From Bacteroidota bacterium (GTDB taxonomy: Bacteria; Bacteroidota; Bacteroidia; Chitinophagales; JADIYW01), in assembly GCA_963169645.1 (NCBI GenBank), contig CAUJCO010000014.1, forward strand, positions 129,001-193,000: a stretch of 64,000 nucleotides of DNA, given 5' to 3'. The notes under the pieces were generated by a model, which ran no database searches, was not told the DNA's origin, and saw only the letters and a list, made by a program, of their open reading frames with translations. Both the position numbers and the translations under genes were made by a program. Shown piece by piece: positions 40,282 through 47,709 of the stretch; positions within the stretch are counted from its first letter, which is position 1, and every line of letters begins with the position of its first letter.

Positions 40282-41955
40282 TTATTTACATTTAATTTTT
40301 CGAACTTTTAGCTTATCGCCCTTGTGTAAAATGGGATTCTTCTTAAAACCATTCCATTTTAAGATATCTTGTACGGTTACATCATCATATTTTTGTGCGA
40401 TACCATAAAGGGTTTCTCCGCTTTTTACTACGTGTGTTTGAAAACAATCTTTTTTATTATAAATTTTAATCGGGTTTATCTTATCTACAAAAGGTTCTTT
40501 CGATTTTAGTTCTTTCGATTTTGTGGCAACGGATGCTTCTTCATACGTAGTAATTTTACTACTTAGTTCATCTTTTATATTTTTACTTAAATAATTAAAC
40601 CGAACAAATTTCTTTAAATCATTTTTGTGTACATACACCAATAATTCATCGTTTACTTTTATCGTATTATCCGGCAACTGATTCCAATCTCTAATTTCTT
40701 TTACGGTGCAATGAAACCAAGAGGCAATGTTTCCGAGATTATCTCCTTTTTTTACGGTATAAGCTATTGTTTTATAATTAGCGTCATCCACTTTTGAAAT
40801 CGTAGCTGTAATCGATTGGGCTGTTACCTTTTTAGGTTCATCTTCCGCTGTTGGAATATCTTTCCAAGCATCTTTATTTGTAGTGGTTTTAGAAGTAGGT
40901 TTGGTATTAGTCGCTGTAGTTTTGGTTAGGGCATTTACGATAGGCGATTCTAACAATTGTTCTTCTTGTTCGCACAATGCTTTTTGATACAACGAATCTT
41001 GCAAACTCTGATACGCAGTAATTTTTGAAACCGGAATATTTAGAATGAAATCTTGTGGAATAGAGGTGGTGAGTAAAGATGGATTTTCATCAATAATAAC
41101 TTGCCTTGGAATTTCCAATACTTTTTCTAAATCCAACACCGTAATTTTATGGCGTACATTCACGCGGTGTGTATGTTCTGCTTCCATTTCTAACGGAGCG
41201 ACTCCGTATCTATCGGCATATTTCATGGCATATACAATAGCAATAAATGATGGCACATACGCTCTGGTTTCTGCCGGAAGATACGGACGGATATCCCAAA
41301 AATTAGTAGAACCACCAGCCTTTTTGATGGCTTTGTTGACATTACCGGCACCGCAATTATACGATGCAATTGCCATTTGCCAATCGCCATATAAGTTATA
41401 CGACTCCAGCAAATAGCGAGCTGCGGCATCGCACGCTAAATATGGGTCTCTGCGTTCATCGATGCGTTTATTAATGGTTAGATTATACCGCAATGCGGTG
41501 CTATACATAAATTGCCACGGGCCACTGGCACCGGCTTTAGATAGTGCAAATGGATTAAGCGCCGACTCTACTACTGCCAAATATTTCATCTCATCCGGAA
41601 TGCCGTATTTGGCTAAAATAGGTTCAAAAATAGGGAAGAATTTTTGGGCTCTTGCCAACATTTTGGCAATATGTGTTTTTCGTTTTTCATTAGTATTATA
41701 CGAGATGTATTTTTGTACATGGTCATTATAATCTAAAGAAATTGTTTTTTGTATTTTTTTTAGACGAACGGCAATTTGTGCACTCAAAACCACCGGATCC
41801 GGATCATCTTTAAACAATTGTTCTTCTGTCGGGATTTCCAACTCACTTTGATTATCTTTGAATTGTGATGGTGGTGCAGATTGAGCCAGCACTTGCCCAT
41901 TTAACCAACAAAAAAAGAAAAAAATATACCACGAAGTCTGCCTTCCAAATCTCAT
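40282..41955 (-). CDS. Lytic transglycosylase with two LysM domains (MltD-like)
   Basis: A 557-residue exported peptidoglycan enzyme. The signal peptide (about 1-25) is followed by a helical region and the SLT domain: LAVVESALNP with catalytic E130, then GASGPWQFM and a later ASYNCGAGNV. LysM1 is at about 399-440 (TVKKGDNLGNIASWFHC) and LysM2 at about 508-555 (HVVKSGETLYGIAQKY); a threonine/lysine-rich linker precedes LysM1. Such enzymes cleave glycan strands to 1,6-anhydroMurNAc products. The compositional island begins immediately upstream of it. Confidence 0.93.
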   Translation of the reverse strand: MRFGRQTSWYIFFFFCWLNGQVLAQSAPPSQFKDNQSELEIPTEEQLFKDDPDPVVLSAQIAVRLKKIQKTISLDYNDHVQKYISYNTNEKRKTHIAKMLARAQKFFPIFEPILAKYGIPDEMKYLAVVESALNPFALSKAGASGPWQFMYSTALRYNLTINKRIDERRDPYLACDAAARYLLESYNLYGDWQMAIASYNCGAGNVNKAIKKAGGSTNFWDIRPYLPAETRAYVPSFIAIVYAMKYADRYGVAPLEMEAEHTHRVNVRHKITVLDLEKVLEIPRQVIIDENPSLLTTSIPQDFILNIPVSKITAYQSLQDSLYQKALCEQEEQLLESPIVNALTKTTATNTKPTSKTTTNKDAWKDIPTAEDEPKKVTAQSITATISKVDDANYKTIAYTVKKGDNLGNIASWFHCTVKEIRDWNQLPDNTIKVNDELLVYVHKNDLKKFVRFNYLSKNIKDELSSKITTYEEASVATKSKELKSKEPFVDKINPIKIYNKKDCFQTHVVKSGETLYGIAQKYDDVTVQDILKWNGFKKNPILHKGDKLKVRKIKCK

Positions 41956-42187: not shown

Positions 42188-44380
42188 ATGAAAAATTTAA
42201 CAATCCTATTAATTAGTTTTTGGGCATTAAATAATTTGAACGCTCAAAGTTTTAGTCTTGGTAATTCTACTATACCTATGCAAATAAACAATGAAGGATT
42301 AAAATCAATTGATAATTCAATTTCAGGTGCAATAGGACAATTACATAATATTGGAACAACCATTCCAAACCCTTTATTACCAGCTATTGATTCTTTCACA
42401 GATTTAAATATACAAACATTAAGGTTTCCTACTACAGATTTTAATCTTTATCATTTTGGGATTAATAAAAAAGGGTATGGTTTTAATTATGATGAAGTTT
42501 ATTGGAACAAAAAATCAATTGATGGAACAAGTTCATCTGATAGAGCACAAAAAACACAAAATTTAATAAGCAAAGATGAAAGCTATTCAGCAAATATTAT
42601 TGAGTTATTCATAGAAACAGTTCATCAAACTGAAGAAAATAATAATTGTACTGTAAATGTAATTTACACACTAAATATATGGCAACATTTTAGGAATACT
42701 GGAGGTAATTTTAATTTTCATTATGATCTTTCTGGTAGAGATGTAATAACAAGTGGCTTAACTTCATTAAGTATTTTACCTGGCAATCCATTATTTAATA
42801 GTATGATGCAAGAAAATATAGATGCTATTCAATATTTAAAGAATAATGGAGTAAATGTAGTTGGTGTTGAGTACGATAATGAACCATATGATTGGCCATT
42901 AATAAGCAATCAAGACACTTTCAAATTAAATCAAACAAAAATAAATAATTATATTTCAGTAATTCAGACATATGATTCTATGATTAAAAGTATATAGCCA
43001 AATATGAAATCCTCCATACCATTTGCACATTATGGTGGCCCAAATGGAAATTTATATAATAGTTCTGTTTGGTCAAAAAATTTTTATGATGCATTTTCAA
43101 TTCATCATTATTCAAATCCTCAAAGTACGAATAAATTGTTTGGTATAGACTGTATAAAAATTGATTTACCTCCTAATGCTCCATTTTCACAAATCTTGGA
43201 TTTTATTAATAACGATATAAATGGTACTGGTAATAATGCAAATTGTGGCAAACAATTATCATCTCGATTATCTACACTTGATTCAAAAAATAAAGAATAT
43301 TGGATTTTAGAGTGGAATACAAGTGATAAAATTAATATAAATAATTCAATATTACATGCTGAATATTATTATAAGATGCTCTTTTCCGAATTTATTCCTA
43401 ATAATAGAATTAAAAATTGTATTTATTGGGCAGCTTCGATGGTAGATAATGGACCAGTTTTTAATCAAAGTTATCCACATTGGGGTGGGATGATGAGACA
43501 TAAAATTACTAATGCTAATGATTGGTTTATAAACAAACAGGCAACCTATTACCCTGCCCTATATTTTAATAAAATTTTTAAAGATAATATGAAATTAATC
43601 GATAATTATAATTGGAATAATTGGAGTGATTTTGGTCAAATACCGTCATTTATAAGAACTAATTTTAATTCTTTGAATAAAAATAAATTTTTTATAAGAC
43701 CATTCATTAAAACTTTGACAAACCCATTAACACACATAATTAATATGTATATTTATTTTTCAAATATGTCCTCTGAAACAGTCACAGTAGATTATTCTAA
43801 TTTCTATATCAATACTCCTTTTTATTCATGTAGTGGTAATCAAGGGGCGACAAATTATACTTTTAAAGCAACACCAGGTGGCATTGTAGAAAATTACTAT
43901 GACGTTGCTACAATTAATTATATTAAAACTAATTCAACTAACTGGGGAATTGGGCAAGAACCAGAAAGATGGTTTAACTATTCATTTACATCTAAACAAC
44001 ATCAAGGATGGTATGATTTTGATAGTTCAAATATTATTCCGCCTTATTCAGTAGGTATGATCAATTTAACTTTATCAACAAGCGAGTGCAATGGAAGTAC
44101 AAGTATAATTAATAAAGCTATAGACAAACAAGAGAAAAATATTTATAATAAATTTTTATTATATCCAAATCCAACTAAAGAGATTATAAATTTTGAGTTT
44201 AGTGATAATGGAACTAAAAAAATTGAAATTTATGATATTCAAGGAAAAGTAATTAAAAATATTATTACAAATGATAATTCTTACTATTTAAATATGTCTG
44301 GATGCTCAAAAGGAGTGTATATTTATACTATTCTATATGAGGATGGAAAAATTGAGAAATCTAAATTTATATTAGAGTAA
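42188..44380 (+). pseudogene. Clan GH-A-like glycosidase with T9SS domain, interrupted by an in-frame TAG
   Basis: One reading frame of 730 codons is broken only by TAG at 42995-42997. The first part (269 residues) has a signal peptide (MKNLTILLISFWALNNLNAQ) and the acid/base-type motif VGVEYDNEP (E232). The second resumes in the same frame three codons later and contains the likely nucleophile in WILEWNTSD (codon 375), WAASMVDNG and a C-terminal T9SS domain (FLLYPNPTKEIINFEFSDNG to the end). The stop lies between the two catalytic glutamates, so neither part should work alone. A single AAG to TAG change would explain it. Substrate unknown; GH51/GH39/GH30-like folds are possible. Sequencing error cannot be excluded. 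Confidence 0.75.
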
Positions 44381-44599: not shown

Positions 44600-46273
44600 A
44601 TGAAAAATAAATTATTTCTGACTGCAATAGTAATGGGATGTGTTTTATCAATTAGTTATCTATATAATTTTAATTTTACAGGTATTGATGATGCAAATAT
44701 ATATTTTGTATATATGAAGCACCTTGCCAATAGGAATGGTTTAGTATATAATATCGGTGGTGAAAAGGTGGAAGGATTTACTTCTATTTTGTGGACATTG
44801 ATAGGAGCATCTATCTTCAAATTTACCAATAATATTGAGATAGGACTGCTTATTTTGAATCTGTTTATACTTGCATTTTCATTATTTATTTCTATTAAAA
44901 TAATTCAAACTTTTAATGTTGGAAAATTTGAAATAAAAAAGTATATTTTCTTTTTTATTGGGCTTTTATATATTTTTCCGGGTTTTTATGATTGGACAGT
45001 TTTTTCTCTATTAGAAACAGGATTATGGACATTTGAACTAATTTTAATGTCATTTTTATTGATACTTCCTTATATTAATCCAACAATTTATTTCAACAAA
45101 TCTTCAAAATGGATGCTATTTTTATTACCACTACTATTAATTACTAGACCTGAAAGTTTATTATTATGCTTAATTTTTATTTTTATCCGCTTTGTTCAGC
45201 TTTTAATTGAAAAAGAAAAGTTTAGTGTTGCATTTATTCATGTATTGCCAATGATTATATGTTATTTTTTAACTCTAATAATTTTAACTACATGGCGGAT
45301 ATATTATTTTGGTTATCCTTTACCTAATACTTATTATGTAAAAATTTCGAATGATGTTTTCAGTAATATAAATGAAGGATTTATTTATTTCTTTAAATTT
45401 ATTATTCGTTATAATCCATTCATTTTTTTATTTTTTATTTCTATTGTAGCTTGTTTTAGATATTTTTTAAATAACAAAAAAGTAAATAATAGATTAAAAG
45501 CGATTTTTGTATTGGCAATTATTTCCATTGTTGGTTTAGGTATTCCATTTTATACTGGAGGTGATCATTTTAGAATGGCTAGATTTTATCAACCTTATGT
45601 TCCAATTATTTATGTTTGCTTTATACTAATTATAGAGGAGATAAGTGAAAAATATAATTTCTTGCAGAAAATCTTTTCGTCTTATTTTCGAATATGTTTT
45701 TGTCTAATATTCCTTTCACTACTACCTACTAAAAATATTTATTCTCTATTCTTTAATAAGAAACATACTATAGCCATAGAATTTGAAATTGCGAAAGCAG
45801 GTAGAAAGATAGGAAATGAACTAAACTATTTTTTTAACAATACAACAAAACCATCAATTGCTATTATAACGGCAGGAGGAATAGCCTATACATATAATGG
45901 TTATGTTAATGATGTACTTGGGTTAAATAATGTGGAAGTAGCACATTCAACTTCAAATAGACCAAAAAATATTTTAAACGGACATAGAGCATTTAATAAA
46001 AATGTATTCTTAAAACAAAAGCCTGATTTATTCCTTTTTGAATTTACAAAAGATACAAGTAATTATATTCCAATTACAAAAAGAGAAAATTTTGATAGTA
46101 GTTTTGGTGGAAAAGTAATCAAACATATATATAAAGATTCTACTTTTTTAAATGAATATTCGAACGTTTATATAAAAAATAAAGAATCCAATAAAATCTT
46201 AATTGCATTTGCAAGTAATACCTTCCTTAATAATCTAGATAAAAATAAGTACGAAATTACTTTAGTAAATTGA
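44600..46273 (+). CDS. Polytopic glycosyltransferase of the GT-C class (AftB-like)
   Basis: A 557-residue membrane protein with about ten hydrophobic segments (to about residue 375) and a soluble C-terminal part. After the first helix come GIDDANIYFVYMKHLA (D30, D31) and GLVYNIGGEKVEGFTSILWTL, the arrangement seen in actinobacterial arabinofuranosyltransferase AftB and related GT-C enzymes, where the aspartates are catalytic. GGDHFRMARFYQPYVP in the middle is also shared with such proteins. It probably decorates a surface glycan from a polyprenyl donor. It shares the low-CCGG composition of the broken glycosidase. TAGCTTTG at 44550-44557 may be its -7 box. Confidence 0.75.
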   Translation: MKNKLFLTAIVMGCVLSISYLYNFNFTGIDDANIYFVYMKHLANRNGLVYNIGGEKVEGFTSILWTLIGASIFKFTNNIEIGLLILNLFILAFSLFISIKIIQTFNVGKFEIKKYIFFFIGLLYIFPGFYDWTVFSLLETGLWTFELILMSFLLILPYINPTIYFNKSSKWMLFLLPLLLITRPESLLLCLIFIFIRFVQLLIEKEKFSVAFIHVLPMIICYFLTLIILTTWRIYYFGYPLPNTYYVKISNDVFSNINEGFIYFFKFIIRYNPFIFLFFISIVACFRYFLNNKKVNNRLKAIFVLAIISIVGLGIPFYTGGDHFRMARFYQPYVPIIYVCFILIIEEISEKYNFLQKIFSSYFRICFCLIFLSLLPTKNIYSLFFNKKHTIAIEFEIAKAGRKIGNELNYFFNNTTKPSIAIITAGGIAYTYNGYVNDVLGLNNVEVAHSTSNRPKNILNGHRAFNKNVFLKQKPDLFLFEFTKDTSNYIPITKRENFDSSFGGKVIKHIYKDSTFLNEYSNVYIKNKESNKILIAFASNTFLNNLDKNKYEITLVN

Positions 46274-46287
46274 AAGTTCAATATAAT

Positions 46288-47709
46288 TTATATTATGTGT
46301 AAATCATTAGCAAACGCTAATAATTTTTCTTCTTGCCATCTTCCTGCCATTAATTGCATGCCAATAGGTAGTCCATTTTGTGATTGATATAATGGCAATG
46401 AAATACCCGGAACGCCGGCAATATTGGCTTGTACGGTGAAAATATCACCTAAAAAAGAGGCAATAGAATCTTGCACGGCTCCAATTTTATACGCAGGTGT
46501 AGGTGCCGTTGGGCAAAGTATAAAATCGTACTCTTCTAAAGTTTTATGGGTTTTTTCGGCAACAATGCGTCGTACTTTTTGAGCTTTGGAATAATACGCA
46601 TCATAGTAGCCGGCACTCAACACAAATGCACCGCTCATAATTCTGCGTTGTACTTCCTTGCCAAAACCTTGTGACCGCGATAATTTATATGTCGATTCTA
46701 AATCCGTTGCTTCTTTAGCACGATAGCCATATTTTACACCATCGTAGCGGGAAAGATTGCTCGATGCCTCTGCTGTTGTAAGCACATAATATGCCGGAAC
46801 AATATAATCTAATTCGGCAAATTCAATAGCCTCTACGGTATGGCCTTCTTGTTTTAAACGGTCAATAAATTGCCAGCAAGCCGCACGAACTTCGGTATCT
46901 ACACCTTCGTGTTCTAAAGCATTGTTGTAATACGCAATTTTGTATTTTTGATTGGAATGTAAACTGCTGGTATATGCAGGAACAATTTTTGGCGAACAAG
47001 TTGCATCGTATGCATCGGCACCGGCAATTACTTCTAAAATAAGAGCAGCATCTTCAACCGAATGTGTAAACGGTCCAATTTGATCAAAAGAGGAACCATA
47101 CGCCATTAAACCATAACGAGAAACACGGCCGTATGTTGGTTTCAGCCCGACAATTCCACAAAAGGAAGCCGGTTGCCGAATGGAACCGCCTGTATCAGAA
47201 CCAAGTGCTGCTATACATAAATTAGCTGCCACTGCTACTGCAGAACCACCGGAAGAACCACCGGAAACACGCGTTGTATCGTGTGGGTTGAGCACCGGAC
47301 CGTAGTAAGAATTCTCATTACTGCCACCCATCGCAAATTCATCGCAATTTGTAGTGCCCACAATAATGGCATCTTCTTGCAATAATTTTTCTACTACTGT
47401 GGCTGAATATGGAGAAATAAAACCCTCTAATATTTTGGAAGCACCGGTTGCCGGATGATTGGCATAAACGATATTATCTTTTATAGCAATCGTTAAACCG
47501 AATAATTTTCCTAAAGTTTGTTTGTTTTGAAGTTTTGCATCTAAATTATGAGCTTGTTGTAGCGCACTTTCCTCGAAGACATGGACAAATGCATTGAGGT
47601 GTGCATGCGCGTTTATTGTTTGTAAGGTATGTTGGATATATGCAGTAACTGTAAACTTTTGACTATATAAATCTGCTTGCAGCGTCTTGAGAGATCTGTA
47701 TATTTCCAC
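46288..47709 (-). CDS. gatA: Aspartyl/glutamyl-tRNA amidotransferase subunit A
   Basis: A 473-residue amidase-family enzyme that supplies ammonia to transamidate mischarged Glu-tRNA(Gln) or Asp-tRNA(Asn). The Ser-cisSer-Lys triad is visible: K77 in TIAIKDN, S152 in SGGSSGGSA and S176 in GSDTGGSIRQPA. GVKYGYRA and GFGKEVQRRIMSG are also typical. gatB and gatC are not in the window. tatA lies 16 bases upstream. The island begins at its stop codon; the C-terminus appears complete for a Bacteroidota GatA. Confidence 0.95.
   Translation of the reverse strand: MEIYRSLKTLQADLYSQKFTVTAYIQHTLQTINAHAHLNAFVHVFEESALQQAHNLDAKLQNKQTLGKLFGLTIAIKDNIVYANHPATGASKILEGFISPYSATVVEKLLQEDAIIVGTTNCDEFAMGGSNENSYYGPVLNPHDTTRVSGGSSGGSAVAVAANLCIAALGSDTGGSIRQPASFCGIVGLKPTYGRVSRYGLMAYGSSFDQIGPFTHSVEDAALILEVIAGADAYDATCSPKIVPAYTSSLHSNQKYKIAYYNNALEHEGVDTEVRAACWQFIDRLKQEGHTVEAIEFAELDYIVPAYYVLTTAEASSNLSRYDGVKYGYRAKEATDLESTYKLSRSQGFGKEVQRRIMSGAFVLSAGYYDAYYSKAQKVRRIVAEKTHKTLEEYDFILCPTAPTPAYKIGAVQDSIASFLGDIFTVQANIAGVPGISLPLYQSQNGLPIGMQLMAGRWQEEKLLAFANDLHII

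Follow-up and report, generated by a model that had tools for sequence, protein, structure and literature searches.

The window, by which we mean the whole stretch of 64,000 nucleotides analysed, comes from a Chitinophagales bacterium and carries on its forward strand a reading frame at 42188–44380 that runs over 731 codons with exactly one stop inside it, a TAG at 42995–42997 (codon 270), and with an in-frame ATG at 43004, 6 nt past the TAG. An earlier sequence-only reading had described the frame as continuous apart from this TAG, with the ATG following it, and both the translation and the ORF listing confirm it, the latter giving two pieces, 42188–42997 (269 aa) and 43004–44380 (458 aa). 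No other nonsense or frameshift lesion is present over these 2.2 kb of 26% GC DNA, and a search of the organism's own genome recovers the identical frame with the single TAG within. In 500 first-order Markov sequences matched in composition the mean number of stops per frame was 61 and the minimum 39, and the remaining two forward frames over the same interval hold 60 and 113. Since some 61 stops would be expected at equal composition, the frame is a single gene carrying one lesion and not a pair of abutting genes. The features of the locus are collected in Table 1.

Table 1. Features at the interrupted hydrolase locus and its flanks (positions in the window)
Feature	Position	Strand	Remarks
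Left anchor, LysM-containing protein	40282–41955	-	lytic-transglycosylase-like by sequence; conserved
AT-rich accessory segment	42001–46280	.	about 24% GC; surroundings about 34%
N-terminal fragment, 269 aa	42188–42994	+	putative signal peptide MKNLTILLISFWALNNLNAQ; predicted barrel strands as far as helix 4; acid/base-like E232
In-frame TAG, codon 270	42995–42997	+	between predicted helix 4 (249–269) and predicted strand 5 (274–278)
C-terminal fragment, 458 aa from the ATG	43004–44380	+	predicted barrel strands 5–8; nucleophile-like E375; no signal peptide
T9SS type A sorting domain (Por_Secre_tail)	44159–44371	+	Pfam and NCBIfam profile matches
Membrane protein, 557 aa, intact	44600–46273	+	weakly like the putative glycosyltransferases LA_3751/LA_3752
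Right anchor, gatA-like amidase	46288–47709	-	conserved

The first 20 residues of the frame look, when judged by eye, like a signal peptide. At the other end, the tail scores 48–49 bits against PF18962 (Por_Secre_tail; cut-off 27, E 1.3e-12) and 53 bits against TIGR04183 (cut-off 23, E 3.5e-14), bearing out the proposal that the product is cargo of the type IX secretion system (T9SS). The TAG parts the two signals, which thus fall on separate polypeptides; the N-terminal part being devoid of the tail and the C-terminal part of the signal peptide, the halves are not expected to meet extracellularly, and a restarted C-terminal part, having no signal peptide, should not get to the T9SS at all. 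As for transcription, sigma-70-like sites occur at chance level and no terminator-like sites were found at the locus. A Bacteroidota-type -7 box was not found upstream of the hydrolase gene, and one (TAGCTTTG) precedes 44600.

Codons 232 (GAA, 42881–42883, in EYDNEP) and 375 (GAG, 43310–43312, in ILEWN) encode glutamates that are invariant across the homologues, both in an 8-sequence and in a 12-sequence alignment. Further invariant residues include R79, E228, N231, H306, Y308, W372, and W376. An AlphaFold2 model based on the alignment of eight sequences, with Gln in place of the TAG, is weak, with a mean pLDDT of 53.2; by ten-residue block the values are 74–87 at 201–230 and 251–280, 80 and 56 at 361–380, and 44 at 231–240. 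This model (mean pLDDT 53) places E232 after a strand at 223–229, E375 within a strand at 370–378, and the TAG between a helix at 249–269 and a strand at 274–278. Its best fold matches (Foldseek, VIA-align) are GH51 arabinofuranosidases, GH30 glucocerebrosidase and xylanases, and heparanase. At the level of sequence, the catalytic body falls below the cut-off of every Pfam and NCBIfam model, those of glycoside hydrolases included, and a body-only profile run against PDB sequences returned only chance-level matches. Taken together, the fold matches of this low-confidence model point to a clan GH-A-like barrel, as had been proposed, with E232 probably after strand 4 and E375 on strand 7. The stop would then fall before strand 5, so that it separates the two catalytic-type glutamates. 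That they stand on opposite sides of it was likewise anticipated from the sequence, and the codon positions (232 and 375 against 270) and the invariance of both residues agree.

Among characterized enzymes the closest resemblance is to the GH51 alpha-L-arabinofuranosidase Araf51 (PDB 2c7f), which ranks first among the fold matches (VIA Z 15.7, rmsd 4.2 over 359 residues) and has two conserved glutamates, one after strand 4 and the other on strand 7, placements that the weak model also gives to E232 and E375. A weak PDB profile match to GH51 (E 0.0038) was obtained in one alignment and was gone with the body-only alignment. However, identity in the structural alignments is 10–15%, all Pfam GH models stay below cut-off, and the window gene differs in its added T9SS tail and in the TAG interruption. 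GH30 glucocerebrosidase and xylanases, with a Z tied with that of GH51, and GH79 heparanase, which is among the Foldseek matches, have the clan fold that is predicted for the window gene, although it shows no sequence-level membership in either family.

Homologues are about 22–32% identical and come from Chitinophagales and related Bacteroidota genomes, the closest being about 30% identical; a related-locus search with the single protein as query gave no closer ones, and a search with a tighter alignment yielded seven loci. The full-length homologues found are all intact single ORFs, including L004 (568 aa), L005 (736 aa), L006, L008, L013, L018, L078–L084, and a distant intact paralogue in the same genome, L002 (738 aa), whose context is common to L082 and L083 and partly to L084. 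Among the catalytic-domain matches, the window gene is the only one with an internal stop. Homologues that exist naturally as two proteins with the same boundary, which would speak against a broken gene, were looked for and were absent among the full-length sequences; these being intact single ORFs without exception, they lend no support to a natural two-protein form. In the alignment the position of the stop is occupied by Phe in L004, L005, and L018, by Asp in L006 and L013, and by Tyr in L008, which lends nothing to the suggestion of an ancestral AAG at 42995. The exact pattern around the stop had no match in viral contigs. The missing GG of an FPGGT motif was considered as a mark of decay and rejected, as the intact congener copy L005 is also without it.

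The surroundings of the gene vary from one genome to another. In the congeners G005, G006, G003, G002, and G007 both anchors are adjacent, and the hydrolase and the second gene are absent between them. A further congener, G004, has the glycosyltransferase-like gene at this same site without the hydrolase: on its contig C49 the gene lies beside gatA, and on contig C13 the left anchor is followed by about 240 bp and then by the first codons of the gene. G003 does carry both genes elsewhere, an intact hydrolase (736 aa) directly upstream of the second gene (559 aa) with 5 bp between them. The pair at the other site occupies L076 1220–5115, and the second gene alone at the present site L070 3–1601. 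It is evident that the hydrolase is a patchy accessory gene, dispensable in the genus. The glycosyltransferase-like protein of the window is 58% identical to that of G003 (56–58% over the congeners G003 and G004), whereas the two hydrolases are only 29% identical, and either the hydrolase evolves much faster than its neighbour or it was exchanged. Other families of the order have more distant homologues of the glycosyltransferase-like protein, at 32–36% identity (L092–L095, in G309, G374, G206, and G114). A separate difference between genomes is an extra gene of 480 aa between ruvA and the lytic-transglycosylase-like gene in G006 (L071 4001–5443) and G003 (L072 7671–9113); in the window no comparable ORF is listed there.

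The break appears to be young. About 4.8% of random substitutions create a stop in this frame, and from the lack of further nonsense we estimate that at most about 60 neutral substitutions, less than about 2.8% of sites, have accumulated since inactivation (at 95%). In the family tree the end branch of the window gene (1.32) does not exceed those of its intact relatives L004 (1.62) and L005 (1.37), and prolonged decay is thus not indicated, the branches being long and the placements unsure. A single lesion in 2.2 kb of 26% GC DNA thus means that the break is recent, or that it is an error.

Error, whether of sequencing, of assembly or of the metagenome consensus, with the real gene intact, is the main rival, since such artefacts are common in public assemblies, where published work traces many apparent internal-stop pseudogenes to assembly error (PMC11017572). 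We consider it unlikely, but by no means negligible. An error would leave just such a trace, one substitution-type lesion with the rest of the frame untouched, and the genome contains another T9SS-tail gene with a frameshift alongside a TTTTT run. On the other hand, the assembly, in 14 contigs, is contiguous, with 100% completeness and 0.01 contamination, the stop site lies outside any homopolymer, and only one other of the 43 T9SS-tail matches in the genome has a stop inside the match, so that breaks do not visibly abound in the genome, its pseudogene density being judged from these 43 matches only. The second broken gene (G000:C14:26107-27295; L097 1608–2796) has an N-terminal part at 1608–2036 with a signal-peptide-like start and a C-terminal part at 2083–2796 with the tail, in different frames; its apparent frameshift adjoins the TTTTT run and may be a real lesion or a homopolymer error.

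If the TAG is real, it could still be leaky or switchable. The ATG just beyond the stop and the fact that both halves are still open would suit some functional enzyme being made by programmed or leaky UAG read-through or by restart at 43004, and the stop is followed by a C, a context that tends to be leaky in other bacteria. However, TAG is an ordinary working stop in this genome: it terminates 8 of the 40 long ORFs in the window, RF1 is present, and the 30 tRNAs include none with a suppressor (CUA) or other stop-reading anticodon, all being sense, in a list that may be incomplete, as no Ile-GAT was seen. Read-through, raised in the sequence-only reading, is therefore not supported, and neither is recoding. 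Moreover, no homologue has a stop at that position, and restart would leave the C-terminal part without the signal peptide. We regard this possibility as very improbable, and small regulated amounts of full-length T9SS enzyme produced by low-level read-through or restart as hardly to be expected; if they did occur, the locus would hold a surface hydrolase controlled by a naturally occurring nonsense switch and paired with a glycosyltransferase-like partner. A phase-variable or population-polymorphic nonsense allele, kept as an on/off trait, deserves almost no credence. Surface glycan genes are often variable and the presence of this one is patchy within the genus, but no slippable repeat or invertible element was found at the stop, the only repeat there being TATATA, and phase variation, also suggested earlier, finds no support since slippage at TATATA would shift the frame and not restore it.

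The explanation we consider probable is that an accessory T9SS hydrolase gene of predicted clan GH-A fold was inactivated by a recent nonsense mutation, seemingly an ordinary loss of function. Of the causes put forward from the sequence, recent nonsense mutation thus stands as the likeliest, and read-through and phase variation find no support, nor does the AAG ancestor. The ancestral locus would have encoded one secreted glycoside hydrolase of 730 residues with a clan GH-A fold, its signal peptide serving for export by Sec and its C-terminal tail for the subsequent passage through the type IX secretion system. A recent point mutation, which is probably real in the organism, would have created the TAG at codon 270, and translation would now stop after half a barrel. 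The N-terminal fragment would lack the nucleophile and the T9SS tail, and a product restarted at ATG 43004 would lack the signal peptide and the acid/base residue. With each fragment missing one catalytic-type residue and one export signal, the hydrolase has probably lost its activity, and the gene, an accessory one that can be dispensed with, would now be a nonsense allele or a young pseudogene. In its lone premature stop within an otherwise intact accessory gene it resembles other bacterial internal-stop pseudogenes and shows nothing unusual, and the inactivation of a gene that congeners do without is unremarkable.

Automatic annotation would list two proteins here, one short and secreted and the other T9SS-tailed without a signal peptide, for what is really one broken gene. 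The locus also draws attention to a GH-A-like family of Chitinophagales that is still uncharacterised, and to a hydrolase and glycosyltransferase-like pair that comes and goes among the species of one genus.
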